Shown here piece by piece: positions 25,405 to 63,349 of a DNA stretch of 64,000 nt; within the stretch, counting starts at the first letter, position 1, and every line of letters starts with the position of its first letter. Origin of the DNA: Brumimicrobium mesophilum (GTDB lineage: Bacteria; Bacteroidota; Bacteroidia; Flavobacteriales_D; Crocinitomicaceae); the NCBI RefSeq assembly GCF_003025005.1, contig NZ_PVSS01000015.1, forward strand, positions 1-64,000. Direction: 5' to 3'. The position numbers and the translations under genes are program-made. Under the pieces are notes generated by a model. It saw nothing but the letters and a program-made list of their open reading frames with translations. It did no database searches and was not told the DNA's origin.

Positions 25405-25535
25405 TTATTCACCCATTATTATGAATGAATACGCTAAACTCTGAAGGTGACAGAGATCTCGGTCAACTTTATTATTACCATAAGTAACAGAATGGATTAT
25501 AAAAATTCTATCTGAATTATTGTCTTTGAAATATA
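25405..25535 (-). pseudogene. 3' remnant of a lipoprotein gene cut by the prophage
   Basis: On the minus strand an in-frame stretch from the prophage edge to TAA (25407-25405) encodes FKDNNSDRIFIIHSVTYG and a further 23 residues ending IIMGE. Joined at the duplicated AATATA to the lipoprotein at 62858-63349, it restores a continuous reading frame (...NYLY-FKDNNSD...) of about 197 codons. The remnant has no start signal of its own and should not be expressed as a protein. It proves the insertion site. Confidence 0.85.
25530..25535. repeat. left target-site duplication of the prophage
   Basis: AATATA, identical to 62881-62886 at the right junction. Host coding sequence lies to its left, and the phage begins with a run of six C to its right. 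The true duplication could be 5 or 6 bp. Confidence 0.75.
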
Positions 25536-25644
25536 CCCCCCTTAAAACAATAACTACAAAAGACAACATCCAAAAAAAGCCCTAAAAAGCCCAAAAACAT
25601 TGAAGAGTAACTAAAAAAGGGCTCCTTTATTAAAAAAAGCGAAT

Positions 25645-25721
25645 AGTACAATAACAACGATTCAGTACCTTTTCAGTACCATTTAGAGCGCCATCTACCT
25701 CTCCCAAAAGTTAAACAGTAC
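25645..25721 (+). repeat. cluster of AGTAC repeats at the left phage end
   Basis: AGTAC occurs at 25645, 25664, 25675 and 25717, three times as CAGTACC followed by A or T. AGTAC in the inward direction also occurs twice near the right end (minus strand, 62867-62863 and 62844-62840). This spacing and orientation would suit binding sites for the transposase at the two ends; that is inference. Confidence 0.45.
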
Positions 25722-25758
25722 CATTCGGGAGAGAAAACACAACAGAACGCACGTATAC

Positions 25759-25792
25759 GCCACAAAAACGAAATAGTTTTGTGGCTTTTTTT
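25759..25792 (+). terminator. rightward terminator inside the left phage end
   Basis: GCCACAAAA and TTTTGTGGC form a 9-bp stem followed by a run of seven T. It would stop rightward transcription entering from the host or from the end region before it reaches the repressor gene from behind. No gene precedes it within the phage. Confidence 0.7.
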
Positions 25793-25868
25793 ATGCTTTA
25801 AACTTAAATTAATGAATGTTTAAATGGAATTATAACAAATCGAGAATAACTCTAAAAAATAGATTAAA

Positions 25869-25904
25869 ACTACATTAAGGACTACATTAAGAACTACACT
25901 TTTT
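25869..25904 (+). repeat. three 12-bp tandem repeats
   Basis: ACTACATTAAGG, ACTACATTAAGA and ACTACACTTTTT follow each other directly (25869, 25881, 25893). They lie between the phage end and the repressor gene. They may bind the transposase, a host factor or the repressor. The surrounding 25793-26072 is AT-rich and contains no gene. Confidence 0.6.
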
Positions 25905-26072
25905 TAATAAAATAGATGCCTTTAATAATCAACTTTGCATATTTATGTATGTTTAGGAAGGTTGAAACGTGCCTTTAACGCTCATCTTTATGATGAACTA
26001 GTGTTGATAATCAGTTATTTAGTTTTTTAAATTAGTTGATTAAGGGGGGGGTAACGAACAGAAGTGTACTTT

Positions 26073-26495
26073 TTAAGGCTTTTTCTTGATCAATTCAATC
26101 ATTTCTGTCAGCAGTTTATTCTCTCTAGTAAGGAAGTCAACTTTGTTGATCAGAAGTTTATTCTCTAACTCTACTTCTTCAACATCTCTCTTTTGTGACA
26201 AACTAGAGTAAGTACTAATATTCTCCATTGCTTTAGAAATTCCTGCTCCTTCCATTACCTTATCGTAAGCTCCTCTTATAGTTTGATCAATCTTCAACAT
26301 TGACCCTTCTCCCCTTAATAACCACTCAACATTTAGGTTTGGAAAATGCTCCCTTATATTAGAGAGTTTATCTTCTCCAATACCTTTTGAAATACTATTA
26401 ACGTAGCCATTACTGGCTTTAATCAAGGATTCGAACTCTTTAGTTTTTAAATTCTCGTACTTGATAAAACGCTTTAAACGTTCTTTTACACTCAT
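26073..26495 (-). CDS. phage repressor-like HTH protein
   Basis: A 140-aa protein on the strand opposite to the early genes, in the place of Mu c. The N-terminus (MSVKERLKRFIKYENLKTKEFESLIKASNGYVNSISKGI) fits a helix-turn-helix, and FPNLNVEWLLRGEGSML is the typical end of the HTH domain of Bacteroidota phage regulators. A predicted coiled coil (about 105-138) would make it a dimer. There is no LexA-type peptidase domain, so induction would not be by RecA cleavage. The ATG at 26495 is chosen; the frame to 26624 would run through both operators. The likely targets are the two palindromes at 26531-26574. Confidence 0.8.
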   Translation of the reverse strand: MSVKERLKRFIKYENLKTKEFESLIKASNGYVNSISKGIGEDKLSNIREHFPNLNVEWLLRGEGSMLKIDQTIRGAYDKVMEGAGISKAMENISTYSSLSQKRDVEEVELENKLLINKVDFLTRENKLLTEMIELIKKKP

Positions 26496-26530
26496 AATCA
26501 GGTTGTTAAAGTAATAACGGTGAAATTCAT

Positions 26531-26574
26531 TAGAGAAAAACTCTATTTTACTTGTTAAATAGAGAAAAACTCTA
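26531..26574. promoter_or_regulatory. two identical 15-bp palindromic operators
   Basis: TAGAGAAAAACTCTA occurs at 26531-26545 and again at 26560-26574, centres 29 bp apart (just under three helical turns). Each is TAGAG, five A, CTCTA. The second lies in the spacer between the -33 and -7 boxes of the early promoter, so bound repressor would block it. The first lies in the repressor leader and could give autoregulation. Confidence 0.75.
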
Positions 26575-26583
26575 TTATATTTG
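26552..26583 (+). promoter_or_regulatory. early rightward promoter of the prophage
   Basis: TTG at 26552-26554, a 21-nt spacer and TATATTTG at 26576-26583. Transcription would start near 26590, 24 nt before the first early gene. The spacer is filled by operator 2. Confidence 0.7.
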
Positions 26584-26597
26584 TAAGCAATTAAACA

Positions 26598-26605
26598 CAA
26601 ATATA
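26598..26605 (-). promoter_or_regulatory. -7 element for leftward repressor transcription
   Basis: On the minus strand TATATTTG. A transcript from here would cross both operators before the repressor ATG at 26495. No clear -33 TTG is present, so this is tentative. Confidence 0.4.
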
Positions 26606-26613
26606 ATAAATAT

Positions 26614-26865
26614 ATGAAATTCACAGAAGAAGATTATACTGATGCGAAAAATGCACACCTAGATAGAGTGAATTTCCTTCGATCACAAATTGCATACGGA
26701 GATTGGAAGGAAGTTGTTAAAATTTGTAATGAGTCTGGTGAAGAGATCGGAAGTACAATGCATGCAATTAACATCATAAGAAGTGTGAATTCAAAAAAAC
26801 ACATGGCAGTTTTCAATGCTCTGGAGTCAGTGATAGAGAAAAGATTACAGCAATTCAAATCATGA
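26614..26865 (+). CDS. first early gene, 83 aa, Ner-position protein
   Basis: A small mostly helical protein (MKFTEEDYTDAKNAHLDRVNFL...) with no family I recognise. It lies directly behind the early promoter and before the transposase, the place held in Mu by ner, the lytic-phase negative regulator. A segment DWKEVVKICNESGEEIGSTMHAINIIRS could be a short HTH, but that is a guess. Its stop overlaps the start of a 32-aa peptide (ATGA). Confidence 0.65.
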   Translation: MKFTEEDYTDAKNAHLDRVNFLRSQIAYGDWKEVVKICNESGEEIGSTMHAINIIRSVNSKKHMAVFNALESVIEKRLQQFKS

Positions 26866-26960
26866 TGCTAAAAGAAAAACCGAAATCAACAATAGATCTG
26901 CTCTTAAAAGTAGTAGGACTATTTGGATCTCTAGGAGCCCTCATCCATTTTATGAATTAA
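26862..26960 (+). CDS. 32-aa single-helix membrane peptide
   Basis: ATG at 26862 overlaps the stop of the preceding gene (ATGA) and runs to TAA at 26960. The peptide begins MMLKEKPKSTIDLL and continues with a hydrophobic helix (LLLKVVGLFGSLGALIHF). Overlap with a translated gene, a fitting charge distribution (Lys-rich N-terminus) and the place before the transposase support it as real. The function is unknown. Confidence 0.5.
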   Translation: MMLKEKPKSTIDLLLKVVGLFGSLGALIHFMN

Positions 26961-26970
26961 CACCAACAAA

Positions 26971-29064
26971 ATGCAAAATTCAAATCAAGAGTTACAATAC
27001 TCTAATCCATACGAATATTACGGTCCTATTTTATGTGTAAAAGCAAGATGGTTGTATAAGGAGGCATGTATTATTACAAAGCACTTATATGATGCACTTA
27101 GAGATAGAGGTCATTTAAACGTTGTTCGCCAAGGAAAAGGGAAAGGAAACTACGCATTAGTAGAATTTGAAAGCATTAGAAATGACATTAAAGAACAAAT
27201 TGAAAATCTTGTAAAACCAATTGAAGAGGTTTACAATGTTCTCGAGGATCTAATAGAACCGGACAACGAAGCGATCAGATATTTCGCTACGCAATACAGA
27301 AAACCTGAAGGTGGTTTACTTCCTCCAGCTAAACAACGTGAATACTGTACAAACGCAATCATTCTTAACGCTTGCAAAAAGTTCTATTCTAAGAATGTAG
27401 CGAAAAAGAAAAAAGGCTGGATTTGGGATAAACTATCTCAATCGGTTAATGATCTCGACACAGAGAAATATGTTTTCAAACTTCCATCTACTCCCGTAAC
27501 TCTTAAACGTGCTTTTGCGAGATATGAAAAAGAAAGTTACATGGGATTAGTTCACGGAGGACACGGAAATGATAACCCTCGTAAAATCAACGATGCCATT
27601 GAACGCATTATCCTTTCAATTTCAGCGATGAAAAACAAGCCTTTCAATAATTGGATAGTTGAAATGTACATGAGCTTTATGGCTGGCTCTACAGAGATTG
27701 TAGACATGCAGACTGGCGAATTATTCAACCCTGAAGATTTTTACCATAAAGGCGCTCCTGTTACCTTCTCGGAGGCGACAGTTTGGAATTACGTTAACGA
27801 ACCTAATAACCAAGCTTTATTGGCCAAGTATAGAACAGATTCTCACCAATACAATAACAACCACCGTCCACACGTACACCGCCACGCTCCGAAATTCTCA
27901 CTTTCTAAGATTTCATTAGATGATAGAGATCTGCCTAGAAAATTGAAAAACGGAAAACGTGTGAAAGCTTATTACGCTTACGATGTTGCATCAGGTTGTG
28001 TGATCGGAGCATCTTATTCAAGAGATAAAGACACGAAGTTGTTTATTGATTGTATCAAGGACATGCTGCAATTCTTAGGACGTAACAATTACGGAATTCC
28101 AATGGAAATGGAAGTTGAACATCACATTGTAAACAACTTCAGAAATGACTTAATGAAGGCAGGAATGGCCTTTCCATTTGTAAGATGGTGTAACCCGGGT
28201 AATTCGCAGGAAAAACGCGCGGAACACTTTAACAAGTCAAAAAAGTACGGTTACGAGAAAAGATACCAGGAAGGAATTGGAAGATGGTATGCTAAATCAG
28301 AAGCTCATAGAACGATAGTTGAAAAGGTTTTCGATGGTGAAAACAATAACTACAAAGAAAAGCAATTCGACTATGGAGACCTTGTAGCAGACGATATCCA
28401 CACAATCGAATTATACAACAATGATCTACACCCCAACCAAAGGAAATACAAAGGCAAAACGAGAATGCAAGTATTGGAAGAGAATATCAATCCTAACTGT
28501 AATGATTTTGATGATGTGATCTGGTCGAAGTATGTTGGTGATAAAACAACAACTTCAATTAAAAGAAATCAATACATGAGGGTTAATTATCAAGATTATG
28601 GAATTCCAAGTATTGATGTAATGAAGCAATTACAACCTAACAATTATGAAGTTGACGCTTACTACATCAGAAATGAGGAAGGAAACATTGACTACGTAGA
28701 TGTTTTCCAAGGTGAAGAGTACATCTGTAGAGCTGAACCTATTGCAACATTCAATGAGGCAACGGCTGAGCAGACGGATAAAGATAGAGAGAACATGTTA
28801 CAACAACAGAAATTCATCTCAAGCTATGACGCATCAATCAAGGAAGCATCAAGAAACAAAATCACAAAACTGCAGATCACAGAACAAGTGAAATATCCAC
28901 GTATTGATCAACCTAAAGAAGAAATTATTCAAGAAGCCTTGGTTATTGATGATTTAGATACGAACGACGATTTTGAAAGGCTAATGGCTTCGAACAATTC
29001 TGACGAATGGATTAAGAAATCAAAAGATAGCCTTTACACTGTAAACCAAAGAAACAACGATTAA
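26971..29064 (+). CDS. Mu-like transposase (MuA family)
   Basis: A 697-aa DDE-type transposase that would integrate the phage and replicate it by transposition. The N-terminal 150 residues are DNA-binding. The RNase H-like core starts near 300: SLDDRDLPRK (Asp317/318), YYAYDVASG (about 333-341), EVEHHIVNNF (381-390), then GNSQEKRAEHFN (410-421) with the candidate catalytic Glu. The second acidic position is Glu383-His-His instead of the usual Asp-Asn-Gly, a feature I associate with the Bacteroidota branch but cannot verify. The C-terminal part (about 480-697) is likely the MuB-interacting and regulatory tail. It is 2 bp from the MuB-like gene. Confidence 0.9.
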   Translation: MQNSNQELQYSNPYEYYGPILCVKARWLYKEACIITKHLYDALRDRGHLNVVRQGKGKGNYALVEFESIRNDIKEQIENLVKPIEEVYNVLEDLIEPDNEAIRYFATQYRKPEGGLLPPAKQREYCTNAIILNACKKFYSKNVAKKKKGWIWDKLSQSVNDLDTEKYVFKLPSTPVTLKRAFARYEKESYMGLVHGGHGNDNPRKINDAIERIILSISAMKNKPFNNWIVEMYMSFMAGSTEIVDMQTGELFNPEDFYHKGAPVTFSEATVWNYVNEPNNQALLAKYRTDSHQYNNNHRPHVHRHAPKFSLSKISLDDRDLPRKLKNGKRVKAYYAYDVASGCVIGASYSRDKDTKLFIDCIKDMLQFLGRNNYGIPMEMEVEHHIVNNFRNDLMKAGMAFPFVRWCNPGNSQEKRAEHFNKSKKYGYEKRYQEGIGRWYAKSEAHRTIVEKVFDGENNNYKEKQFDYGDLVADDIHTIELYNNDLHPNQRKYKGKTRMQVLEENINPNCNDFDDVIWSKYVGDKTTTSIKRNQYMRVNYQDYGIPSIDVMKQLQPNNYEVDAYYIRNEEGNIDYVDVFQGEEYICRAEPIATFNEATAEQTDKDRENMLQQQKFISSYDASIKEASRNKITKLQITEQVKYPRIDQPKEEIIQEALVIDDLDTNDDFERLMASNNSDEWIKKSKDSLYTVNQRNND

Positions 29065-29066
29065 TT

Positions 29067-29954
29067 ATGATAACAACTGAATTTAAACAACGAGTAGTAA
29101 CGGCAATTACTGAAGATAGACAAAATTATCCATCAGCTGCAAAACAAGCCGTAACATTAGGAATAAGCTCGGCTCAACTATCAAGAATTGCAAAGGGAGA
29201 ACTTGAGAAAGTGATTTCTAATCCTAACTGGTTAAGCATTGGAAGACGCTTGAACGTATCTCTCCAGGATAGACCAACTTGGAAAGCAGCGAAAACACCA
29301 ACATTTGAGTTCATATACAATCAATTAACTGATTGCAAGCGTGACTCAGTAAGCGCTTTATTGTGCGATTCTGCGGATATCGGAAAGACATTTACAGCGA
29401 AGTTTTTCGTGAAAGAAAACAAAAACGCTGTTTATATCGACTGCTCCCAGGTAAAATCAAAACAGAAATTCGTAAGACAGATCGCTAAGCAATTTGGAGT
29501 AATTCACACAGGCCGTTACGCTGATGTTTATGACGATTTAGTTTACTACTTACAATCGATTCCAATGTCAGCGCCTCCTATTATCATAGTGGATGAAGCA
29601 GGAGATTTGGAATACCCAGCATTCCTAGAATTGAAAGCATTGTGGAATGCGACCGAGAATATTTGTGCATGGTACATGATGGGAGCTGACGGTTTAAAGG
29701 CAAAGATTGAATCTAACCTTGATCGTAAGAAAGTTGGTTTCACCGAAATCCTATCACGATTTGGAGGAAGCTTTCAGAAAGTGTCTCCAGACGGAAAAGA
29801 AAACCTTGAAGACTTCAAGAAGTTGCAAATGGGATTAGTTGCCCGAGTGAACTTAGAAGATACTGCAGTTGATTTGAAAAACATCTATAACAAGACTGGA
29901 GGATCATTGAGAAAGTTAAGTGCTTACGCTAAAAATCAAAACGGAAATGTCTAA
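29067..29954 (+). CDS. MuB-like AAA+ target-DNA activator
   Basis: A 295-aa ATPase that in Mu captures target DNA and stimulates the transposase. An N-terminal Xre-like HTH (about 18-60) precedes the AAA+ domain. Walker A is unusual: CDSADIGKT (100-108) keeps GKT but lacks the usual first Gly. Walker B is IIIVDEAGD (172-180). DNA binding is expected from the basic C-terminus. It overlaps the next ATPase gene by 8 bp. Confidence 0.85.
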   Translation: MITTEFKQRVVTAITEDRQNYPSAAKQAVTLGISSAQLSRIAKGELEKVISNPNWLSIGRRLNVSLQDRPTWKAAKTPTFEFIYNQLTDCKRDSVSALLCDSADIGKTFTAKFFVKENKNAVYIDCSQVKSKQKFVRQIAKQFGVIHTGRYADVYDDLVYYLQSIPMSAPPIIIVDEAGDLEYPAFLELKALWNATENICAWYMMGADGLKAKIESNLDRKKVGFTEILSRFGGSFQKVSPDGKENLEDFKKLQMGLVARVNLEDTAVDLKNIYNKTGGSLRKLSAYAKNQNGNV

Positions 29955-30944: not shown

Positions 30945-30946
30945 TC

Positions 30947-31192: not shown

Positions 31193-31222
31193 TAAACAAG
31201 TAACAATTTAAAACCAAAGTAT

Positions 31223-31663: not shown

Positions 31664-31667
31664 CAAA

Positions 31668-32324: not shown

Positions 32325-32326
32325 AT

Positions 32327-36744: not shown

Positions 36745-37533
36745 ATGAATTTACACGATTACGACATAATCATTATCAATTCCAGCGGTGGCAAGGATTC
36801 TCTTTGTGCGCTTTGGGAAGTGTGCCGATTGGCTGATGTTCAGGATTTCCCTTTTGAAAAAATGGCTGTCTCGCATCAGGATTTAGGTGATATGGAATGG
36901 GCTAGAACAAAAGAACTGGTTAATAGGCAAGCTGATTTATTTGGGCTAAAAACCTACTACTCAAAGCGAAGGGATAAGAACGGATATGAAGAAACGCTTT
37001 TGGAGTATGTTGAGAGGCGGGGAAAGTGGCCGAGTAACAAACAGCGCTACTGCACCAGTGATTTCAAACGTGGCCCAGGTGGAAGGGTGGTAACTGCTCT
37101 GACAAAACAACTGGGAGAATGCAAAGTGCTGTATGTGTTCGGATTCCGAAAAGATGAAAGCTCTTCCAGAGCGAAAAAAGAAATACTGAAATTGAATAAG
37201 CCACTAACCACAAAAAAGCGGACGGTTCACGATTGGTTACCGATACACGACTGGGACAAAGAAATGGTGTGGTCAACTATCAACATACATAACTTACCGT
37301 ATCATCCAGCTTATGATTTAGGAATGCCACGACTTTCGTGTTGCTTCTGTATATTCAGCCCATTCGATGCACTGGTAGTGGCTGGCAAAGCAAATCCTAA
37401 ATTACTTGATAGATACATTAAAGTAGAAAAGAAAATCGGTCACACTTTCAGAGATGGCTTTGCAATTGAATCTGTGCGGGAGGCAATTGATAATAATTAT
37501 GAACCGAAAATCATCAATGACTGGGTTATGTAG
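36745..37533 (+). CDS. PAPS reductase-family PP-loop protein
   Basis: A 262-aa protein with the PP-loop SSGGKDS (about residues 13-19), as in PAPS reductases, DndC-like and related ATP-pyrophosphatase enzymes. Cys residues in RYCTSDFKRGPGG and LSCCFCIF could hold an iron-sulfur cluster. Genes of this type occur in phages and mobile islands, often linked to nucleic-acid modification or defence, but the reaction of this one is unknown. Its codons are noticeably richer in G and C than its neighbours, and inverted repeats flank the segment, so it looks recently acquired. Confidence 0.8.
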   Translation: MNLHDYDIIIINSSGGKDSLCALWEVCRLADVQDFPFEKMAVSHQDLGDMEWARTKELVNRQADLFGLKTYYSKRRDKNGYEETLLEYVERRGKWPSNKQRYCTSDFKRGPGGRVVTALTKQLGECKVLYVFGFRKDESSSRAKKEILKLNKPLTTKKRTVHDWLPIHDWDKEMVWSTINIHNLPYHPAYDLGMPRLSCCFCIFSPFDALVVAGKANPKLLDRYIKVEKKIGHTFRDGFAIESVREAIDNNYEPKIINDWVM

Positions 37534-41138: not shown

Positions 41139-41594
41139 TTAAACATTATCCGCCTTCCCCCTATAATAAACCGCATATTCCTGCACCCCATCCTCTCTCG
41201 GCACTCTACGCCATCCCGTTCGAATCAACTTCCCAAACATCACGTCAGGCTCAAAGCCTTGCACCACCTTATGCACTTCGTCAATAAGAGTCCAAATACT
41301 TCTTGCTTGTGTTTTCTGTGTTGTTGGAGCTTGGTAGCTCGTATTGGTTAGTTTCAGGTTGGCAATCCTCAACTCAAGCGAGAACTCACCCATTTGTCTA
41401 TTCTCAGGCGTTGCAGATCTATCCTTTCCAATATTGGTAAAGTTCGCTGCATTCACATCAATTAATATACAAGGCCATTGCACCGGGAAGTTTGGAGAAT
41501 AATAATCCAATTGTCCCCAATTCTCATCAACATACTTTGCAGCAGGTACCTCAGTTGCCAACAAATTTTGCGTTGCTGTAATAACTTCAATCAT
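41139..41594 (-). CDS. phage head-tail or tail terminator-like protein
   Basis: A 151-aa protein, last of the leftward head operon and overlapping gpG by 4 bp. The middle is a beta-rich core (WPCILIDVNAANFTNIGKDRSATPENRQMGEFSLELRIANLKL) and a helix follows (SIWTLIDEVHKVVQGFEP), like tail-terminator/completion proteins (Mu gp37/K position). The family match is not firm; the role is inferred from place and fold pattern. Confidence 0.6.
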   Translation of the reverse strand: MIEVITATQNLLATEVPAAKYVDENWGQLDYYSPNFPVQWPCILIDVNAANFTNIGKDRSATPENRQMGEFSLELRIANLKLTNTSYQAPTTQKTQARSIWTLIDEVHKVVQGFEPDVMFGKLIRTGWRRVPREDGVQEYAVYYRGKADNV

Positions 41595-42115
41595 TTCTTG
41601 AATTCTTTAATTAAATAATCTCTAATTTCTACCTTCGTGTCCAGGAACACTTCCTCAACCGCTTTGCCAACATTTGGGTGATCTCCGATGAACTGCCTTT
41701 GTTCAATCTTTATCTTTTTACCCACCTTCATAAGCGCCATGTTTTTCCATTGTTTCGCCTCAGAACTCATCGCAATATCTCTTTGTGAGCCTTTACCGCT
41801 AACTGCTCCTGAAGTCTTGTAATACATCGCCCAAAAAAAGCTTTTCATTTTCTTGGTTACTGTAATTTCTCCTCCTTCATTGTGAATTGAAGCGTACGGG
41901 AGAGAAGAGGTGTAAATAATATTATAATTTGAAATTGTTGAATCAATACTCTGCCTCAATGCCCCTGATCGCAACATTAAACTACCTCTATCGTTGTGCA
42001 TTTTAGTTGGTTTCCAAGCATCATCAAAGAATGCTTTTCGCTCAAAGTTTCTGTCAAACTCATCGTCGAGCTCGAGCTTTACATCCTTTATGAAGTTTTG
42101 AATGATCTGTTGCAT
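41591..42115 (-). CDS. virion morphogenesis protein (Mu gpG-like)
   Basis: A 174-aa protein of the phage virion morphogenesis family (Mu gpG, P2 gpS). The motif HNDRGSLMLRSGALRQSI (about 41-58) followed by YASIHNEGGEI is the family core. It is needed for tail-head completion in relatives. The 22-bp stretch that encodes HNDRGSL also occurs in non-coding DNA at 37974-37995. It lies between the 67-aa gene and the terminator-like gene. Confidence 0.85.
   Translation of the reverse strand: MQQIIQNFIKDVKLELDDEFDRNFERKAFFDDAWKPTKMHNDRGSLMLRSGALRQSIDSTISNYNIIYTSSLPYASIHNEGGEITVTKKMKSFFWAMYYKTSGAVSGKGSQRDIAMSSEAKQWKNMALMKVGKKIKIEQRQFIGDHPNVGKAVEEVFLDTKVEIRDYLIKEFKK
41979..42000. repeat. 22-bp direct repeat, copy 2 (inside gpG)
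   Basis: Identical to 37974-37995. Here it is coding on the minus strand, so this is the likely source copy. Confidence 0.8.
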
Positions 42116-42116
42116 A

Positions 42117-42320
42117 TTACGATGTTTTAAAAGTTTCAGGATAATCTCGCCTTAAAATCCTAGCGTTAACAATGTGTTGAAGTTGATGAAACGAAGTAAC
42201 CCACTCACCAATTTCGGAAGAATGTGTCCTTTCTAAATTGATGAATAAATTATGAGCCTTTACAAGTGCATCCATAACCTGCTTCTCTTCATCCGTATAT
42301 GGTTCTTTAGATTTATCCAT
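42117..42320 (-). CDS. small phage protein, 67 aa, unknown
   Basis: MDKSKEPYTDEEKQVMDALVKAHNLFINLERTHSSEIGEWVTSFHQLQHIVNARILRRDYPETFKTS: an all-helical protein, probably a two- or three-helix hairpin. Similar short proteins (AhNlFv.LE.tHp.E..eWv..iH.LQ) occur in many Bacteroidota phages near gpF; no function is known. It is 3 bp behind gpF and 1 bp before gpG, so it is co-expressed with head genes. Confidence 0.65.
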   Translation of the reverse strand: MDKSKEPYTDEEKQVMDALVKAHNLFINLERTHSSEIGEWVTSFHQLQHIVNARILRRDYPETFKTS

Positions 42321-42323
42321 AAC

Positions 42324-43193
42324 TTACTTCTTAATTTCCTTTTCTGCAGTAGCTTTTACCGCCTTAGCACCTGCCACTTTGTAGTACGGATGATGTGGAG
42401 GGAATGCAACTTTATCCTTGCCCGGATTAAATCGGAAAATCTCCAATCGGTTCTTTCCATCCTTTCCAATTTGGGAGGTTGCATCAGCTCCAAGCTTGTT
42501 TGAAATCTTGCTATCCGAAACTTCATACTTCGACTTTCTAACCTCAAAAGCTGTACATCTACATCTCCATCCATTTGGTGGGTAGTATTTTTCCCAAAAC
42601 TTATCGTCTGCAGGTAAAGTAATTTCGTCAAGAGCTTCATGCTCCAGTCTCACCTTATCATCCTTTGCCGTTCGATACTGAATGTTGTAACGTCCTTTGT
42701 TACTTTCAACCTCTGCCCATTTCGCAGACATTTGCGCAGAGCTTCGTGCAAATTCATACTCGGCTTCCAGATAGTTTTGGTTATACTTTTCTTGTATGCT
42801 TTTCACATCTTCAGAAAACTTTTGAAAACTCTTCAATTTTCCGTCTTCATCCAACAATAACCTCGATGCTTCACTTAGTTGTGAATGCGTTTTCAATGCA
42901 GAAAACACAAATACATCATTTTCCAAACTTGTTAACATTGCTTTTGGGATGACGTTATCCGCAATTCCTTTCTTTAATGCCGTTTTGAAAACCTTATAAG
43001 TTGCGTTAATCAACCCCTTATATTTCATGATGTCAGCAGAGACATAAGCACCTGCAGCTAGCAATTTCTTATAAGCTTCTTCAACTTCCTTTAAAGGTGA
43101 ATTAATTGGCGTTTCATCAGCGTTTAAATTGACTTTCAATTTGTGGCAGTCATCGCAATAATCTGAATAGATTCCCTCCAGTCGCAAATGCAA
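42324..43193 (-). CDS. minor head protein (Mu gpF / SPP1 gp7 family)
   Basis: A 289-aa head morphogenesis protein. The C-terminal core (about 180-225) has RTAKDDKVRLEHEALDEITLP and PPNGWRCRCTAFEV, the Phage_Mu_F signature with its two Cys. No ATG or GTG exists between the upstream in-frame TGA and this core; the first possible start is a TTG at 43193, and a GC-rich palindrome (43215-43234) lies just before it. Mu gpF-type proteins are usually longer at the N-terminus. The start region may therefore have been altered, or an unusual start is used. Confidence 0.82.
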   Translation of the reverse strand: MHLRLEGIYSDYCDDCHKLKVNLNADETPINSPLKEVEEAYKKLLAAGAYVSADIMKYKGLINATYKVFKTALKKGIADNVIPKAMLTSLENDVFVFSALKTHSQLSEASRLLLDEDGKLKSFQKFSEDVKSIQEKYNQNYLEAEYEFARSSAQMSAKWAEVESNKGRYNIQYRTAKDDKVRLEHEALDEITLPADDKFWEKYYPPNGWRCRCTAFEVRKSKYEVSDSKISNKLGADATSQIGKDGKNRLEIFRFNPGKDKVAFPPHHPYYKVAGAKAVKATAEKEIKK

Positions 43194-43214
43194 ACTTTCA
43201 AAATACTGCTTACT

Positions 43215-43234
43215 CCCCGACCTAATCGTCGGGG
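43215..43234. repeat. GC-rich palindrome between portal and gpF genes
   Basis: CCCCGAC and GTCGGGG flank a 6-nt loop. It starts 1 bp after the portal stop codon (minus strand). In AT-rich phage DNA a perfect 7-bp GC stem is out of place and resembles a dispersed palindromic element. Confidence 0.7.
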
Positions 43235-44482
43235 CTAGAGAAAAAGTCCGTCATCAGCTTTAAGCTTTTGAACAACCTCACGCTTACCGATAATCTTAAT
43301 ATCGAATTTCTCTTCTACCCATTCAAGATCTACCTCAGCATATTGCATTACTGCAATAACTTTTTTCCATAGTTCGTCTAAATTTTCAGGTATGTCATAA
43401 CGCAATTTCACATCACCGGTAATAAATCCAATTCGCTTCAACGCTGGAAGAATAGTTTTATTCCAGTAATCTTGAGCGATCACAATATCTTCCATTACTT
43501 TCTCCCAAAGTACATCTTGAGCGCTCTCATCTTTCGAGCGATTTCCATTCACAGTGTCCTGGGCAATTATGGCTCCTGAAATAAGCATGCTCATTTCATT
43601 GTTACATAATTTGATTAATTCATTGTAAACGTCTCCAGAACTCGACACACCATCAGCAAATTCAAACTCTTCATGTTCGTCGATGATAAACCAAGCAGCT
43701 GCACCCATGTCTGTCATCATTGCCTCGGCACGTTTCAACATTGCAGGATCTCGTGTATCCGTTTTCATGAAACGTGGAGGAATCCCATAAATCTCACACA
43801 ATTCAGCCCAACAGCTTTGTGCGAAGTCTTTCATTAAAACATGTTTCACAGATTTATTAATGAGACCTCGCTCTTCAGAAACGAACTCCAACAAGAATGT
43901 TCCAAACTCACGCATCTCACGGTAAAGGATAAATTTATCATCGTTTACATCAGGATAAAAACGTCCGTTTTGAGGCACTACATTCGCTCTTGGAATGAGT
44001 TTCACACTTACTTGCTCAACGTTTTCAATGTCTTTATATTTCCCAATCTCAACGAGTGAATAACCAAAATACAAAGCATTTGCTGCATGCTTTGTCAATT
44101 TTCGATAAATACCGGCATCTTTCAATTTCTCGGTTTGCACTTCGTCGATTTCACCGCTTGCAGTTTTCAAATTCCAATCTAAAGAGAACATCTTAGTTTG
44201 TCTATTCTCAATTTGAGAGGTCAATAAGCCGTCATCCATCACACGAGTAAAAATGTCTTGCAATGCGAAGTTTCTCGGATCTTCCTCTCGTTCCGTCGCC
44301 AAAATTGCCTGATTCCACATCTTTAAATCAATGCGAGTTCTTGCAACCGCTTTTGGTTGAGGGTTCAAAACTCGTCGAGTGATTTCCTTATGAGCGTTGT
44401 TTTCAGCTTTCAAGTTTTGAACTGGTTGAATTGTTCCCAATCGCTCATTTATAACTTGCGCCACTTTATTAAATAGTTCCAT
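43235..44482 (-). CDS. phage portal protein (DUF935, Mu gp29-like)
   Basis: A 415-aa portal protein that forms the DNA entry ring of the capsid. The DUF935 pattern is clear: RDPAMLKRAEAMMTDMGAAAWFIIDEHEEFEFADG, then YNELIKLCNNEMSMLISGAIIAQDT and KDESAQDVLWEKVMEDIV. It lies between the gp36-like gene (2 bp upstream) and gpF, in the usual head-gene order of Mu relatives. Confidence 0.9.
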   Translation of the reverse strand: MELFNKVAQVINERLGTIQPVQNLKAENNAHKEITRRVLNPQPKAVARTRIDLKMWNQAILATEREEDPRNFALQDIFTRVMDDGLLTSQIENRQTKMFSLDWNLKTASGEIDEVQTEKLKDAGIYRKLTKHAANALYFGYSLVEIGKYKDIENVEQVSVKLIPRANVVPQNGRFYPDVNDDKFILYREMREFGTFLLEFVSEERGLINKSVKHVLMKDFAQSCWAELCEIYGIPPRFMKTDTRDPAMLKRAEAMMTDMGAAAWFIIDEHEEFEFADGVSSSGDVYNELIKLCNNEMSMLISGAIIAQDTVNGNRSKDESAQDVLWEKVMEDIVIAQDYWNKTILPALKRIGFITGDVKLRYDIPENLDELWKKVIAVMQYAEVDLEWVEEKFDIKIIGKREVVQKLKADDGLFL

Positions 44483-44484
44483 AA

Positions 44485-44946
44485 TTACTCGTAATTGAAT
44501 TTAGGTCTCGAACCAAATCGAAACGGTTGATTGTTTTCTCCACTAGGATCAGTTACTGCCGGGTCAACTTGAGGAAGAGATCCAATTGTCATTTTTCCGT
44601 CAAGTATCATTTTCAAAGTTTCCAAAGCTCTGTCATAACGCTCCTTGGTTTGCTCATAAATGATATCTGCGTTACATAAATCAACAACGTGCCAAATGGT
44701 AACTGTTTTGGTTAAAGACAGAATCAAAGCATTACGGTCAGTTCCTGTAGCTGCGAAGATTGCCTCCACATCATAAACAAGCCTTCCATCATTAAACTCG
44801 TGCTTGAAGTTCGGCATTAGATAGCCCTTCACCTCTTCAATAGCAACCTCAATGGCTGTATCAATTATGGTGTCGTCCCCTTCAGTAATTTGGTCAAGGA
44901 TATAAGCGTACTTATTGGTCTTGAGTTCTAATATTGATAAATACAT
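44485..44946 (-). CDS. Mu gp36-like head completion protein (DUF1320)
   Basis: A 153-aa protein with a helical N-terminus (DDTIIDTAIEVAIEEVKGYLMPNF, RNALILSLTKTVTIWHVVDLCNADIIYEQTKERYDRALETLKMILDGKM) matching the gp36/DUF1320 layout; the C-terminus is a Pro-rich tail (PAVTDPSGENNQPFRFGSRPK). It would act as a head-tail connector. It lies between terminase and portal genes; in Mu, gp36 lies further downstream, so the order differs. Confidence 0.75.
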   Translation of the reverse strand: MYLSILELKTNKYAYILDQITEGDDTIIDTAIEVAIEEVKGYLMPNFKHEFNDGRLVYDVEAIFAATGTDRNALILSLTKTVTIWHVVDLCNADIIYEQTKERYDRALETLKMILDGKMTIGSLPQVDPAVTDPSGENNQPFRFGSRPKFNYE

Positions 44947-44949
44947 ATC

Positions 44950-46479
44950 TTAATTTTTAAATGAAATTCGTTTACCTACGATATGCGTAGTTTCTTCCGT
45001 TGCAGAATTCTCCTGAAGTTTAAATACGCAACCTTCTAATGCATCTGGACCATCCATTGTTTTTGAAGCAACATCAACATCCAGCATTTGATCTTCCATT
45101 CGTTCCATATCGGGAGTGCCTTTTAGTTTTTGGTCGAAAATCAAATCTCCACTCCTGTGGATAGGATCCAATGTTCCTTCAATTCTGTAAAATTTATCAG
45201 GCTTATTCCTATTATCTAATGAAAGAGGAAGTCTTGTTTTACGTCTTTTAGCTCGTTTCTTAATTTCAGGATCAATAACCTGTTCATAAAAAGCATCTTG
45301 TAAGGAGTTGTTTTCAATCCATCCTCTTCGAATCTGGACATTGTGTTCCATCAAATAATCATTAGCATCATAAAGCCAATCGACAAAGCGTGAGTTGCCC
45401 GTTTGATCAAGTCTGATCCAGTAGACGAAATACATGAAGTTTTTATAACCAACTACAATTACACATTTTGCTGAGGCGTTACCTCCGCTCTTGTCTTTGT
45501 TCGATGTTGATGGATCTGCATAGAATAGAACCTTCTCACATTTATGAATAGGTGGACATTTACCATACTTAATTTCCTTAAATACTGTACCTTCTTTCAA
45601 TGGATTATTGAAGTATTCTTTTTGTTGATTTCTGTAGGACATAGGTTTTAACACCCTGTCAATCATTTCCTCTGTATTCTTTTGTGGCCAAGTAGATTTA
45701 CCTTTCTTGTCCCGAATATTTACAATTTCATATCTATCAGCTTTCTTTCCAAGTTCTGTGATCGTGGTATACTTTCCAATAATGTTTCCTACTGCCATTA
45801 AGAGTAGAGGATTAGAAATCGACCGAGTGGCATAAAGTGCTTCAAGTACCCAGTCAACTTTAGCTTTTATTCGTTTCTTATTTCGAACCTCTTCATCTGT
45901 ATCAATATCATCGATCAAAATAACATCAGGCCTCACAGCTTCGTTTCTAGTTCCACGAGGAGATTGACCTGCACCTAGAGCTCTAAATGCAACTCCTTTC
46001 TTGGTGATAAATTCACTCGCAGTCCAACTTCCAACACTTTCTTGCTTTCCGTAATCGTTAATTATACGGTTGTTTGATTCAAGAATAGACTTATAAGGAA
46101 GTAGCAAACGTTCAGCATCGGTAGAAGTAGCGGAGACAAGAATAACGTTCTTCTTTTTTCCAGTTACAGTAAGTTTTAAGACGTCCATCATTGTTCTTGC
46201 CGATTTTGCCAACTCACGACACCAAGCTCGTACAAGGAAAAACTCAGCGTTTTCCATCACGCATTTAGTTGATGGTTTATGAAATGGAGCTGGCTCACTT
46301 AAATAGAAGTTTGGGAAGTAGTATTTATACCACTCCTCGTTATTTCCTTCAAGGCGTTTGATACGCTTGGCTTTGTCTCCTTGACTTTCATCTAAGTCAA
46401 CAGGGGTAGCTTTGTCAATATTCTTTCTGAACTCCTGCCACTTTTCATAATAGGCCTTGTCGCTGATCTTCTTTGCCAT
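44950..46479 (-). CDS. terminase large subunit (Mu gp28-like)
   Basis: A 509-aa packaging ATPase/nuclease. The adenine/Walker A region is RELAKSARTMMDVLKL (about 89-104), Walker B is VILIDDIDTDEEV (about 185-197), and the nuclease part begins at FYADPSTS (about 323) with later acidic residues in WIENNSLQDAF. The size is usual. The small subunit gene directly precedes it and the stop and start are adjacent. Confidence 0.9.
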   Translation of the reverse strand: MAKKISDKAYYEKWQEFRKNIDKATPVDLDESQGDKAKRIKRLEGNNEEWYKYYFPNFYLSEPAPFHKPSTKCVMENAEFFLVRAWCRELAKSARTMMDVLKLTVTGKKKNVILVSATSTDAERLLLPYKSILESNNRIINDYGKQESVGSWTASEFITKKGVAFRALGAGQSPRGTRNEAVRPDVILIDDIDTDEEVRNKKRIKAKVDWVLEALYATRSISNPLLLMAVGNIIGKYTTITELGKKADRYEIVNIRDKKGKSTWPQKNTEEMIDRVLKPMSYRNQQKEYFNNPLKEGTVFKEIKYGKCPPIHKCEKVLFYADPSTSNKDKSGGNASAKCVIVVGYKNFMYFVYWIRLDQTGNSRFVDWLYDANDYLMEHNVQIRRGWIENNSLQDAFYEQVIDPEIKKRAKRRKTRLPLSLDNRNKPDKFYRIEGTLDPIHRSGDLIFDQKLKGTPDMERMEDQMLDVDVASKTMDGPDALEGCVFKLQENSATEETTHIVGKRISFKN

Positions 46480-46917
46480 CTACTTCATTTTAGATTGAAT
46501 GAATAAATCAAAGTGATTAGTAATCTTCTTGGCTTCCTCTAAATCAATCTCACGCACGAAGTCAATAAAGTCTCTTGCAACTTCTACAATTTGACCAATA
46601 GAAGTTTCAACCTCCAGCTTTTGAATTGCGCTTGTGATCTTAGAAATTACATCAGCTTCTTTTGCCTCTGCAACCTTATAATCACGTTCTGTAATTTTAA
46701 GGTTCAGAAATTCCAATTGATCATACAATTGAGAGATCTGATGTTGCTTTGTGATCAGCATTGATTTCCTCAATTTCTTCCATTCACCTTTTTCAATCCA
46801 TCGGGAAACTGTTTTTTCTGTCACCTTGACACGTGTTGCGATTTCCTTTTGAGTTAAATTCTCGGAGGTGTACAATGTCTTCGCATAGTCATGTTGTTGT
46901 TGTTTCTGCAATCTCAT
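46480..46917 (-). CDS. terminase small subunit-like HTH protein (Mu gp27 position)
   Basis: A 145-aa protein. An N-terminal HTH (LTQKEIATRVKVTEKTVSRWIEKGEWKKLR, about 20-50) is followed by helical, probably oligomerising segments (about 60-140). This is the build of small terminases that recognise packaging sites. The start ATG at 46917 is preferred over a TTG at 46935 because that TTG lies inside the predicted -7 element. It is first in the leftward head operon, 0 bp from the large subunit. Confidence 0.75.
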   Translation of the reverse strand: MRLQKQQQHDYAKTLYTSENLTQKEIATRVKVTEKTVSRWIEKGEWKKLRKSMLITKQHQISQLYDQLEFLNLKITERDYKVAEAKEADVISKITSAIQKLEVETSIGQIVEVARDFIDFVREIDLEEAKKITNHFDLFIQSKMK

Positions 46918-46932
46918 ACTACTATTTATATG

Positions 46933-46940
46933 CAAAGTTG
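46933..46940 (-). promoter_or_regulatory. -7 element of the leftward late operon
   Basis: On the minus strand CAACTTTG, one mismatch from TAnnTTTG, 15 nt before the ATG at 46917. It lies in the 150-bp region between the leftward head operon and the rightward capsid-tail operon, so the late promoters in both directions should be here. I could not define the rightward one. Confidence 0.35.
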
Positions 46941-47066
46941 ACCTAAATCAATCGGATTTTGAAAAAACGTTGTAAGGGTTGCATGACATTTTGGCGCAAT
47001 TTGAAAGAATCCGCAATTTTGAAACCTGAACGATTGAACAATCAATTATTAATTCAACTAGAATTT

Positions 47067-48020
47067 ATGCCAAAAAAAGGTGACAGCTTCGTTTTGAACG
47101 ACGAAAACGAATTGAATAGCTACGGTTTTAGGACTTCAAATGAAGGATTGAACCTAGACAGATTCAAAGACAATCCTGTATTGTTGGATTACCACCGCAC
47201 TTCTAACGAGTCGGTTATTGGTCGTTGGACAAACATCAGAATCGAAGGATCACTATTGTTAGCTGATCCTGAATTCGACATCGAAGATCCAGCAGCATTG
47301 AAAGTAAAAGGAAAGGTTGACCGTGGCTTTATCAAAGGTGCATCAATGGGCTTGACTTTCAGCCATAAGAACATGGAGATTCAACCAGACGGGACCTATC
47401 TATTAGGAAAATCCCAATTAATGGAAGGTTCTATCGTGTCCATTCCATCAAATCGTAAATCATTAAAGCTCTATACAGAGGATGGTGATCTAATGACGGA
47501 GGAATCTGTCAAATTATCAATTAAGCAAATCAGTAAACCCAAAATAGATATGCCAAAAGTAGCATTAAGTTTTGCTGCATTAACAGCGCTAGGTCTTCAA
47601 AGTGATGAAGATTCAGTTGCATTAAGCGCAGCAGTTGAAAAGCTAGCAGGTGAGAAAACCTCACTTACAGCAAAATTAAAAGCTAAAACCAGCGAGCTTG
47701 AAGCGTTGGAAAGTAAAGTTGAAGCAGACAACGATGCAAAAGCATTGTCTATGGTTAAGAACGCAATCACAGAAGGTAAAATCACAGCCGACAAAAAGGA
47801 GAAGTTCTTAAAAATAGCTAAAGCTGATTTCACATTAGCCGCAGATTTCTTAAGTGAAATTCCAGCGAAAAAAACATTGGCTGGAGAAGTGATTAATTCC
47901 ACTTCAGGTGGTGACCTTCCAAAAACAATGGATGAGTTCGAGAAATTGTCAACTGAAAAGAAGTTGAGTTTCCAAGCAGATCACCCTGCAGAGTTTGAAA
48001 AATTATTCACGCAAAACTAG
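47067..48020 (+). CDS. phage protease/scaffold protein (Mu gpI-like)
   Basis: A 317-aa protein that matures the capsid. It starts MPKKGDSFVLNDENELNSYGFRTSNEGLNL, then NPVLLDYHRTSNESVIGRWTNIRIEGSLLLADPEFD and GFIKGASMGL, the prohead-protease pattern with His about residue 43. The C-terminal half (about 170-260) is a coiled coil likely to serve as scaffold. The frame is open 108 bp upstream from a TTG, but the family begins at the ATG 47067. The capsid gene follows at 5 bp. Confidence 0.85.
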   Translation: MPKKGDSFVLNDENELNSYGFRTSNEGLNLDRFKDNPVLLDYHRTSNESVIGRWTNIRIEGSLLLADPEFDIEDPAALKVKGKVDRGFIKGASMGLTFSHKNMEIQPDGTYLLGKSQLMEGSIVSIPSNRKSLKLYTEDGDLMTEESVKLSIKQISKPKIDMPKVALSFAALTALGLQSDEDSVALSAAVEKLAGEKTSLTAKLKAKTSELEALESKVEADNDAKALSMVKNAITEGKITADKKEKFLKIAKADFTLAADFLSEIPAKKTLAGEVINSTSGGDLPKTMDEFEKLSTEKKLSFQADHPAEFEKLFTQN

Positions 48021-57108: not shown

Positions 57109-57114
57109 ATTGAA

Positions 57115-57348: not shown

Positions 57349-57376
57349 TTAATAAATAACCAAAATAGAAGTAAGC

Positions 57377-57787: not shown

Positions 57788-57808
57788 TCCAATTTAAAAA
57801 ACGAACCA

Positions 57809-59639: not shown

Positions 59640-59641
59640 TA

Positions 59642-60499: not shown

Positions 60500-60978
60500 T
60501 ACAATTTGATGTAAATAACATAGTTGAGAACAACATTTCTCCAAGGCTAAGAAAGGTATTTACTTTGGCTTTCTTCAAGGCTTGTGCATCACCATTGGTG
60601 GTTAGTTTCTCGACCTTTTATCAATTCTATGAAGATAAGAAATATGAATTACTATTCAACGGGCAAGTAATTTACTTAGAGCATTTATTAAACGATCAAT
60701 TTGACAATATTAATAGAGGCATTTACATTACGGATGCTCCACAACAGGCTGATCAAATTGTGCTCTATAATGAAAATGAAAACAATGAGGAGACCGTTAT
60801 TTTTAATATTCCAGAAAATGAACCTCCTATTGTTACTTACAATTATAGTGAGATGTTGGCTTGGCCAGACTTTATTGTCAACATCCCTTCAAGTGTTGTT
60901 TTTAATCAAACCCAACTGAAGGCATACGTCAACAAATACAAATTAGCAGGTAAGAATTATATAATAAATATAGTGTAA
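60496..60978 (+). CDS. baseplate-associated protein, 160 aa (Mu gp48 position)
   Basis: A 160-aa protein (MIQFDVNNIVENNISPRLRKVFTLAFFKACASPLVVSFSTFYQFYEDKKYELLFNGQVIYLEHLLNDQFD...). No firm family is seen, but it overlaps the J-like gene by 4 bp and precedes the fibre gene, the position of Mu gp48/gpI-type connectors. Confidence 0.65.
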   Translation: MIQFDVNNIVENNISPRLRKVFTLAFFKACASPLVVSFSTFYQFYEDKKYELLFNGQVIYLEHLLNDQFDNINRGIYITDAPQQADQIVLYNENENNEETVIFNIPENEPPIVTYNYSEMLAWPDFIVNIPSSVVFNQTQLKAYVNKYKLAGKNYIINIV

Positions 60979-60979
60979 C

Positions 60980-61828
60980 ATGAAATTAATAGAAACAAAT
61001 CCAAATGGTGGTTATCGTTTTTTCTCTGAAGATGTACGATTCATGAATGAGATTAGTAAGGAGATGGTCGACATGGTAATAAAACCTCTAACGGCAATTC
61101 ATAACGTTATTATTCTTGGTGGTTGTACAATTACAACATCAGGTTTGAATACTACTATTTCTGAAGGGGTGGTACTTTTCAACGGTGAGTTAATGCGTTT
61201 CGACTCTCAGACTTACGTAACACCAACAGGAGCTGACAATGCATATTGGGTGCTTGAGAACAATGTTTTGGAAACAAGGCTTTTCCAAGCAGGAAACACA
61301 GTAGATGTTTACCAGGAGAATGTAGCAAAGGTTGAAGTCGGATCTGCAATCCCAGCGAACTCAATCAATGTAGTATCTACGAAGAGGTATTGGGAGGTTG
61401 TGAATGATCAGATCGTTCATCCGCCAGCACCATCGGCCTTTGAGGCATTTTATTTCGCAACTTTTGTAGAATTCACTTCTAACCTTATTTTTCTATCAGC
61501 TGATCCTAGTGGTCTATCAGTTTCATTTGGAGTGAATAAGCAGTGCTACATAGAATTGAACGAAACGAATACTTCTACAGAGATGAAGTTATCTTCCTTT
61601 GGTAGCATGGCGCCTTTGGGGACTATTATACATATTCGTTTTAATGTTGCCCCAGATAACTTCAATAATCCTTTTCAAATCGTTTTGAACAGCACAGTGG
61701 TTGGTGGTTTACCTCCTATAACGCTAGCTGGAAATCCAAGTGCAAATGCTGTTTTTGCACCTATACCAGTTGGAACTTTAATTAAGTTTATAAGAACAAA
61801 TAATGGTTGGGAGATAATGGAGTATTAA
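60980..61828 (+). CDS. tail fibre-like protein, 282 aa
   Basis: A 282-aa beta-rich protein beginning MKLIETNPNGGYRFFSEDVRFMNEISKEMVDMVIKPLTAIHNVIILGGCTITTSGLNTTISEGVVLFNGELMRF. The start is typical of the fibre-base proteins of Bacteroidota phages, followed by jelly-roll-like strands. It is the last structural gene, where receptor-binding fibres are expected. No catalytic motif is seen. Confidence 0.65.
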   Translation: MKLIETNPNGGYRFFSEDVRFMNEISKEMVDMVIKPLTAIHNVIILGGCTITTSGLNTTISEGVVLFNGELMRFDSQTYVTPTGADNAYWVLENNVLETRLFQAGNTVDVYQENVAKVEVGSAIPANSINVVSTKRYWEVVNDQIVHPPAPSAFEAFYFATFVEFTSNLIFLSADPSGLSVSFGVNKQCYIELNETNTSTEMKLSSFGSMAPLGTIIHIRFNVAPDNFNNPFQIVLNSTVVGGLPPITLAGNPSANAVFAPIPVGTLIKFIRTNNGWEIMEY

Positions 61829-61854
61829 AAAATAGAAGACCCCCGCTATACATT

Positions 61855-61945
61855 CGTCCCCACGAAAATATAAAAGCACATTACATGCACGAGAGCCTTC
61901 TTTAAGGTCATATTTGCAGGTAGTGTGCTTTTTTTCGTAGGGACG
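61855..61945 (+). ncRNA. long hairpin leader before the DNA methyltransferase gene
   Basis: A nearly continuous stem: CGTCCC (61855-61860) with GGGACG (61940-61945), one C-A mismatch, ACGAAAA (61862-61868) with TTTTCGT (61932-61938), a 4-nt bulge, then AAAGCACATTAC (61873-61884) with GTAGTGTGCTTT (61920-61931, one G-U). The 35-nt top contains a small CCTT/AAGG hairpin. It ends 26 nt before the methyltransferase ATG. There is no ORF in it. It may be a cis-acting RNA controlling the gene, a stand-alone RNA or a processing signal. Confidence 0.55.
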
Positions 61946-61971
61946 AGCACAAATTTAATAAAAGTATAGTG

Positions 61972-62781
61972 ATGAAAATAGAAAAATCAAAAAATAAAAA
62001 GACACCAATCTCCTACTATGGTGGAAAACAGATGATGCTGCCAAGAATTTTACCAATAATTCCTCAACATAAGATATATGTTGAAGCCTTTTTTGGTGGT
62101 GGAGCAGTGTTTTGGTCAAAAGAAGAGTCCGAAGTTGAAGTGATCAACGATTTAAATGGTCAGGTAATTAATTTTTATAGACAATTGAAGTCTAACTCAA
62201 GAGAATTAAAAGAACGTGTAGAATCGACTCCTTACTCCCGTGAGAGCTATAAACAAGCTATGGTTGTTTATAATGCACCTTATTTATTTAATGAAGTAAC
62301 AAGAGCATGGTCGTTTTGGGTTGCTACAGTACAAGGGTTCAGTAATAAAATAGGTTCATGGCGATGCGCACAGAACACCAATAAAGAGTGTAAATTACTT
62401 GAGAATAAGAAATTGTTGATCAGTGATGAAACCTCGCAAAGATTGAAACATGTGCAGATAGAGTCTAAGGATGCTATTAAATTAATACTAAAACATGACA
62501 CTCCTGATACGTTTTTTTATCTTGATCCACCTTATGTTGATAGTAATCAAGGTCATTATGGTGGTTATATGCAGTCTCATTTTGATGAATTACTTGATAC
62601 ATTGAGAACAATAAAGGGTAAGTTTCTGTTGAGTTCATATCCAAATGCAAAACTCAAAGAGCTAACAGATTTAGAAGGATGGAGCAGTATTGGAAATGAT
62701 CTTCCATTGAGTGCGTCAGCAACAGCTGGTAGACGTAAGGTTGAAATGTTGACGTTTAATTATGATTTAAACGAGGATTAA
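61972..62781 (+). CDS. DNA adenine methyltransferase, D12 class
   Basis: A 269-aa Dam-like N6-adenine methyltransferase. The AdoMet site is FFGGGAVF (about 36-43) after PISYYGGKQMMLPRILPIIP, and the catalytic motif DPPY is near residue 183, followed by HFDELLDTLRTIKGKFLLSSYPN. The ATG at 61972 is used; a GTG directly before it is an alternative. It is the last phage gene, in the position of Mu mom, and would protect phage DNA from restriction. The recognition site cannot be read from sequence. Confidence 0.88.
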   Translation: MKIEKSKNKKTPISYYGGKQMMLPRILPIIPQHKIYVEAFFGGGAVFWSKEESEVEVINDLNGQVINFYRQLKSNSRELKERVESTPYSRESYKQAMVVYNAPYLFNEVTRAWSFWVATVQGFSNKIGSWRCAQNTNKECKLLENKKLLISDETSQRLKHVQIESKDAIKLILKHDTPDTFFYLDPPYVDSNQGHYGGYMQSHFDELLDTLRTIKGKFLLSSYPNAKLKELTDLEGWSSIGNDLPLSASATAGRRKVEMLTFNYDLNED

Positions 62782-62803
62782 ACGAGGATTAAACGTTGTT
62801 TAA
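62771..62803 (+). repeat. three 11-bp tandem units at the right phage end
   Basis: ACGAGGATTAA twice, then ACGTTGTTTAA. The first unit contains the methyltransferase stop codon. The repeat may result from slippage or be part of the right-end binding sites. Confidence 0.6.
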
Positions 62804-62807
62804 AAGC

Positions 62808-62863
62808 CTATAAATTCAAATTGGAAATTACTTTTTTTTGTACTTTTCATTTTGAATTTATAG
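62808..62863. repeat. 13-bp inverted repeat next to the right phage end
   Basis: CTATAAATTCAAA (62808-62820) and TTTGAATTTATAG (62851-62863) are perfect inverted copies 30 bp apart. The right copy contains the stop codon now used by the truncated lipoprotein. It ends 17 bp from the phage-host junction. Confidence 0.6.
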
Positions 62864-62867
62864 TACT
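62840..62867 (-). repeat. two AGTAC repeats at the right phage end
   Basis: On the minus strand AGTAC occurs at 62867-62863 and 62844-62840, both as AAAAGTAC. They mirror the AGTAC cluster at the left end and may be transposase sites. Confidence 0.4.
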
Positions 62868-63349
62868 TTTGGTTTTTTCGAATATAAATAATTTAAAACT
62901 CCGTTTGCTTTTTCCTTACTATTTTCTTCATATTTAATCCAATAGTGCTCAATTGAGTCAATTTGATGTTTACCTATTTTCTTTAACACCATTAAGATGT
63001 CTTTGTTTGCCATTTTGACTTCTGAATTAAAATAATCAATCAGTTCTATTTTAATATCATGAATTACTGTAACTGCAATTAATCTAGTCTCATTTTGAGA
63101 TAAACTACTATCTACAGCTGTAATTCCATAATTTCCTTCTATTGTCGATTGTTCTAACCACCAATTTTTAGGAAGACAGATTTTAAATTTTTCAATAGTA
63201 TCTTGATAAATAAAGTTATCTGAGTCTAATTGTTCATTAAAACAATCCATAGCCTCATCTATATTAATCTTGAAACCATCTATATTTTTTTCATTTTTAC
63301 AGCTAAATAGTAAAAGTATTAATGGCAATATATAAAGTTTAGCTTTCAT
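62858..63349 (-). CDS. host lipoprotein truncated by the prophage
   Basis: The remaining 5' part of a host gene, 163 codons. Signal MKAKLYILPLILLLFSC with lipobox LLFSC (Cys about 17), then NIDEAMDCFNEQL and FKICLPKNWW, a layout seen in Bacteroidota lipoproteins of unknown function. The last seven residues (SKKPKVL) are encoded by phage DNA; the natural continuation, about 41 residues, is at 25405-25535. The ATG at 63349 is chosen; a GTG at 63367 overlapping the mscS stop is possible. The truncated protein may be unstable. Confidence 0.8.
   Translation of the reverse strand: MKAKLYILPLILLLFSCKNEKNIDGFKINIDEAMDCFNEQLDSDNFIYQDTIEKFKICLPKNWWLEQSTIEGNYGITAVDSSLSQNETRLIAVTVIHDIKIELIDYFNSEVKMANKDILMVLKKIGKHQIDSIEHYWIKYEENSKEKANGVLNYLYSKKPKVL
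62881..62886. repeat. right target-site duplication of the prophage
   Basis: AATATA, identical to 25530-25535. Host coding sequence of the lipoprotein lies to its right. Confidence 0.75.

Follow-up and report, generated by a model that had tools for sequence, protein, structure and literature searches.

A Mu-like transposable phage has very probably transposed into a Brumimicrobium mesophilum lipoprotein gene, within its 3' part, duplicating 4 bp of target (AATA), leaving a prophage at 25534-62886 and costing the host gene its last 42 codons. The window, by which we mean the whole stretch analysed, comprises positions 1-64,000 of the forward strand of contig NZ_PVSS01000015.1 (assembly GCF_003025005.1). 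At the level of sequence, the termini, the duplication, the open join and the gene content are established, and the case is that of an ordinary transposable prophage within an orphan lipoprotein gene. An earlier note had proposed that one lipoprotein gene was split by a phage and lost its C-terminus, which holds; the junctions lie elsewhere than it placed them. The ends and duplication length given here are likely exact; they concern a further phage of a group that many Bacteroidota carry, and exact ends allow empty sites and disrupted genes to be rebuilt correctly.

Identity and gene content of the prophage

The prophage (37,353 bp, plus strand) lies between mscS and hemN and was identified by matches to phrog_310, phrog_296 and PF06074 and by termini that match those of relatives. 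Adjoining its left end is a probable phage repressor (26073-26624, minus strand; a weak match to the transcriptional regulator phrog_8, E 5.5e-4), and then come a MuA-like transposase (26971-29064, plus strand; phrog_310, E 5.8e-34) with an adjoining MuB-like ATPase (29067-29954, plus strand; phrog_296, E 2e-30; AAA_22). A Mu-type portal (43235-44482, minus strand; PF06074, E 1.3e-60) and a terminase large subunit (44950-46479, minus strand; phrog_38, E 1.2e-49) were also found, together with a tape measure (PF20155). The Mu-like protease is represented by a protease/scaffold candidate (46959-48020, plus strand) that matches PF10123 below its cut-off only; its product also matches phrog_11321 (unknown function, E 3e-62) and the head maturation protease phrog_2976 (E 9e-7). 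The final gene before the right end, as in the phage Peternella, encodes a D12 adenine methyltransferase (61969-62781, plus strand; PF02086). MuA, MuB, the Mu portal, the terminase, the tape measure and the D12 methyltransferase together indicate a Mu-like transposable phage, which the earlier note had not recognised. The presence of the MuA transposase speaks against an integrase-type, site-specific prophage, as does a hexamer shared by the two junctions that is not homologous between the ends (part of the phage ORFs was screened). The phage is presumably still active.

The late region runs in two orientations. On the minus strand are the genes for terminase, portal and connector (window 41591-46935), while those for protease, major head, tape measure and baseplate read on the plus strand. 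A PAPS reductase-like phage gene was seen at 36745-37533 (PF01507, phrog_424).

Phage termini

The phage begins with TACCCC... and ends with ...CGAATATA at 62886. Its left terminus (25534-25557, plus strand) is TACCCCCCTTAAAACAATAACTAC, in which base 15 is the C of an AAAAC core, as in six compared relatives. Read from 25534, the window has TACCCCCCTTAAAAC, where the relatives have TACACCCCTAAAAAC (L059), TACACCCCTCAAAAC (L056), TATGCCCCCTAAAAC (L080), TATGGGGGTTAAAAC (L107), TATAACCCATAAAAC (L083) and TACAGGGGATAAAAC (Peternella). Among the motif matches listed, the distance from TA to the end of the AAAAC core is 15 bases both in the window and in these six. In several relatives the left end opens with TA, followed by a run rich in C or G and by a core whose closing C is base 15; five other left ends (L105, L092, L111, L104 and L095) start with TATA or TATG and have no clean AAAAC core. 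The left-end DNA found no match in the phage collection.

The right terminus (62863-62886, minus strand) reads inward as TATATTCGAAAAAACCAAAAGTAC, and at the same place Peternella and the phage TCUEAP3 have TATAATCG. Because the records of both phages end in CGATTATA, we placed the right end of the window's phage at 62886. The other relatives had their right ends located either by a TATAATC motif or by resemblance to the left core, and part of their agreement with this end is due to selection.

Target duplication and placement of the junctions

A Mu-like transposer is expected to insert at no fixed site and to duplicate a short stretch of target. In the window, AATA occurs immediately outside the termini on both sides (25530-25533 and 62887-62890). 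A 4-bp direct repeat outside TA...TA termini was found in 11 of 13 prophages, that is, the window and 10 of 12 relatives (L104 weakly); mismatched left and right flanks agreed in 9 of 156 pairs, and AATA is common in AT-rich DNA. The two remaining relatives, L093 and L084, had no flanking repeat at the ends chosen, though these ends look good (loci L093 and L084 with L204 and L210). The right motif of L084 is only ~18 kb from its transposase, which suggests a deletion or a second element. A right side was obtained for 18 relative prophages in all: 10 match (counting weak L104), 2 do not and 6 are unpaired, five having no accepted right end (L089, L101, L088, L090, L107) and one, L100, no left end in the DNA examined. 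One-mismatch right candidates in L088 and L089 were rejected as ends because they did not pair with a good left end.

The left ends of L092, L111, L105, L095, G442:C29 and L104 were accepted with the repeat in view and right ends were selected by motif, so such relatives are not independent tests. Six left ends could be picked by motif alone (L080, L083, L096, L108, L093, L084), and four of these six prophages carry the repeat. Pairing ends under an assumed 5-bp duplication gave no clean pairs; it was pairing by core likeness and the right-end motif that led to the 4-bp result.

Phage Mu of E. coli makes a 5-bp duplication and has TG...CA ends, features of Mu itself that this prophage, with its TA...TA ends and 4-bp repeats, does not share. 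The same insertion could nevertheless be read as having duplicated 5 bp, AAATA, which would put the right end at 62885. Classical Mu makes such 5-bp repeats. For Hankyphage, 5-bp direct repeats are stated in PMC6199706. AAATA does fit the window's site, and with the right end shortened by one base a like reading fits 6 of 13 prophages (the window and 5 of 12 relatives). It is an unlikely reading, since L111, L096, L095 and L108, plus weak L104, are compatible with 4 bp only, and 4-bp bounding repeats are stated for transposable phages of Porphyromonas gingivalis in PMC10367356. No 5-bp repeat stands at the ends as placed in any of the 13. Less probable still is the placement in the earlier note: a phage at 25536-62880, the hexamer AATATA as a core shared by the two junctions, and an intact gene of about 197 codons. 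AATATA is literally present at 25530-25535 and 62881-62886, and the join made there is open. The match is a coincidence: the left copy is the target AATA followed by the phage's TA, and the right copy is the phage terminus. Among the relatives, the right-hand bases are the phage's own constant terminus, ATTATA, the left-hand bases vary with the target, and a hexamer repeat at the placed ends occurs in 0 of 12; the Peternella and TCUEAP3 record ends likewise go against it. The ends at 25534 and 62886 lie 2 and 6 bases away from that placement, which shows how junction calling by eye can be led astray by a chance hexamer. A prophage-free allele would read AAATATAAATAATTT under the 197-codon version.

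We therefore retain the 4-bp duplication. Such repeats are already in print for the relatives in P. gingivalis. We lean towards the view that Bacteroidota MuA-type transposases as a group make a 4-bp stagger and recognise TA...TA ends, unlike Mu, with the 5-bp repeat of Hankyphage including one base of the phage end.

The split lipoprotein gene

In minus-strand order the host DNA carries mscS, the lipoprotein ORF, the prophage, a remnant, a terminator and hemN. The mscS-like channel gene (63364-63984, minus strand; PF00924, PF21082) runs past the window edge, and hemN, so named in the earlier note, is a hemN-like radical SAM gene (23868-25220, minus strand; PF04055). The truncated lipoprotein ORF (62858-63349, minus strand; 163 aa) starts with ATG at 63349 and has its stop ending at 62858; it includes LLLFSC, which we take to be a lipoprotein-type start. 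Its stretch 62858-62886 is phage DNA, and its last nine residues, LYSKKPKVL, are not host-coded, with one split codon and then eight wholly of the phage; seven had been counted before. The 3' remnant (25405-25533, minus strand) comprises 42 codons and a stop, is open in the joined frame, and contains, as described earlier, a stretch from FKDNNSDRIFIIH to IIMGE with its stop ending at 25405. When the phage and one AATA were removed, an in-frame ORF of 195 codons was restored, not 197, against 163 at present.

Very probably, a MuA/MuB phage of the transposable Bacteroidota group entered the lipoprotein gene that follows mscS, transposing into its 3' part through a 4-bp staggered cut at AATA, which was duplicated upon repair. 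On this reading the host gene lost its end and was parted from the terminator, and the truncated ORF now runs 9 residues into the phage. Under the 4-bp join the pre-insertion site would read ...TTTGAAATAATTTAAAAC..., within the 195-codon ORF. That gene was presumably functional, and the truncated lipoprotein may be impaired.

That joining gives one open frame was confirmed; such openness by itself says little about the exact join, since 4 of 13 offsets around the join first proposed (-6, 0, +3, +6) read through to the same stop, as does the 4-bp-duplication join, which lies outside those 13. As no homologue was found among the 99 and 240 genomes searched, apart from the own genome and weak partial matches, support for an intact gene comes from the in-frame join, the coding-like codons of the remnant and the terminator downstream. 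The intrinsic terminator ahead of hemN (25353-25379, minus strand), noted earlier, is indeed there: the stretch containing it folds at -19.8 kcal/mol (z -4.2; none of 200 shuffles was as stable). The codon log-odds of the remnant were +7.2 in the joined frame and -10.4 to -27.5 in the five other frames; this supports the gene, as do the small (~3%) chance of an open frame and the nearness of its stop to the terminator. The lipoprotein might instead have ended naturally near the insertion, 25405-25533 never having been coding and its open frame being due to chance. The remnant has no homologue found, in Markov sequences of matching dinucleotide composition a given frame remains open over 42 codons in ~3% of cases, and coding-likeness, at P 0.0037 unconditioned, is not decisive given the open frame (P 0.057). 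We consider this improbable, because, once the duplication is fixed, the frame before insertion has to continue into the remnant, barring later change in the flanks, and because the remnant's stop lies ~25 nt before a terminator.

With one genome per species in each set, the N-terminal part of the lipoprotein matched, among 99 genomes, its own genome and one weak match only; the joined protein of the earlier note matched, among 240 family genomes, its own genome and six weak matches only. Pfam at E up to 5 gave no match for the N-terminal part or the remnant. Weak-match alignments were examined for L003, L064 and L067, leaving out L062, L065 and L066. L003 was rejected as a homologue because its alignment covers the signal-peptide end only, and L064 and L067 because what aligns is for the most part 90 residues of a 340-aa protein, presumably a DNA polymerase III delta subunit; in these two a further segment reaches query residue 167 at 1.7-2.0 bits, which is not significant.

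Comparing the mscS-hemN interval in relatives, as had been suggested, cannot decide the matter, the lipoprotein having a match in 0 of 9 congeners. The two genes are adjacent in six of the nine (G001, G002, G004, G005, G008, G009), with 110 to 1,212 bp from mscS stop to hemN start; G003 has them on separate contigs, G006 has more than 80 kb between them, and G007 lacks a close hemN. Since no congener matches and interval content differs, the gene looks lineage-specific and the interval variable. In G004 (L005:1-1500) the interval contains an unrelated ORF, up to ~300 codons long and hydrophobic at its start, and in G002 a stem-loop with a T-run was seen by eye at a like place after mscS.

Relationship to known transposable phages

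The phage is an additional member of an already known group of transposable Bacteroidota phages (Peternella, fF4 and Hankyphage-like). Its transposase matched 29 records in the phage collection, none of which reached 60% identity; three faecal contigs without annotation had 38-42% over 87-90% of the query, and the named phages were distant (Peternella 26.6% over 48%, TCUEAP3 24.9% over 51%). Identity to IMG/VR contigs was up to 56%, a window-identical copy excepted: contig 2831912403, considered as an independent strain, was identical over 7,989/7,989 and 2,429/2,429 overlapping bases and was taken as the same genome. The genome-contig scan gave 33 loci, and the best 80 of 196 were kept from the viral-contig scan. 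An order-wide transposase search (E up to 1e-40) matched 2 of 399 genomes, its own and G027.

The closest prophages by transposase (41-56% identical over most of the length) were L056 and L059 from IMG/VR and those of Aequorivita, Tenacibaculum, Mesonia and Capnocytophaga. Termini like the window's were found where examined (L056, L059, L080, L083, L105, L092, L111), whereas L056, L059 and the genome-record prophages differ in target sites and hosts, and some of their left ends lack the AAAAC core.

Winoviridae and Alisviridae were compared by transposase and termini only. Peternella_1 of Winogradskyella (Winoviridae, MT732475) resembles the window in that, at the left end, a transcriptional regulator on the minus strand adjoins transposase and transposase B, an adenine methyltransferase is the final gene, and the record runs from TACAGG... 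to ...CGATTATA, although the transposases are as distant as stated above. Peternella is described as Mu-like, with hybrid phage/host reads, in PMC8776804. According to PMC7761591, Flavobacterium columnare fF4 and fF4-like prophages, the latter in several Bacteroidetes, have in the same order a repressor, a DDE transposase, an ATPase and a DUF935 portal, with DNA modification among the final genes as in the window; this likeness is by description. Hankyphage and the proposed Alisviridae are likewise transposable Bacteroidota phages with non-specific sites and short bounding repeats (PMC6199706, PMC10367356, PMC12135933), reported as 5 bp in Hankyphage and 4 bp in the P. gingivalis phages, against 4 bp in the window; the transposases differ, with ~29% identity over 29% of the query. 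Hankyphage integration is described as random (PMC6199706) and its replication as transpositional (PMC12135933). In the TCUEAP3 record (OK632026, L077:1-31), 31 nt precede the TATACCCCC terminus, which agrees with the report that Hankyphage packages 29-31 bp of host DNA at its left end (PMC12135933).
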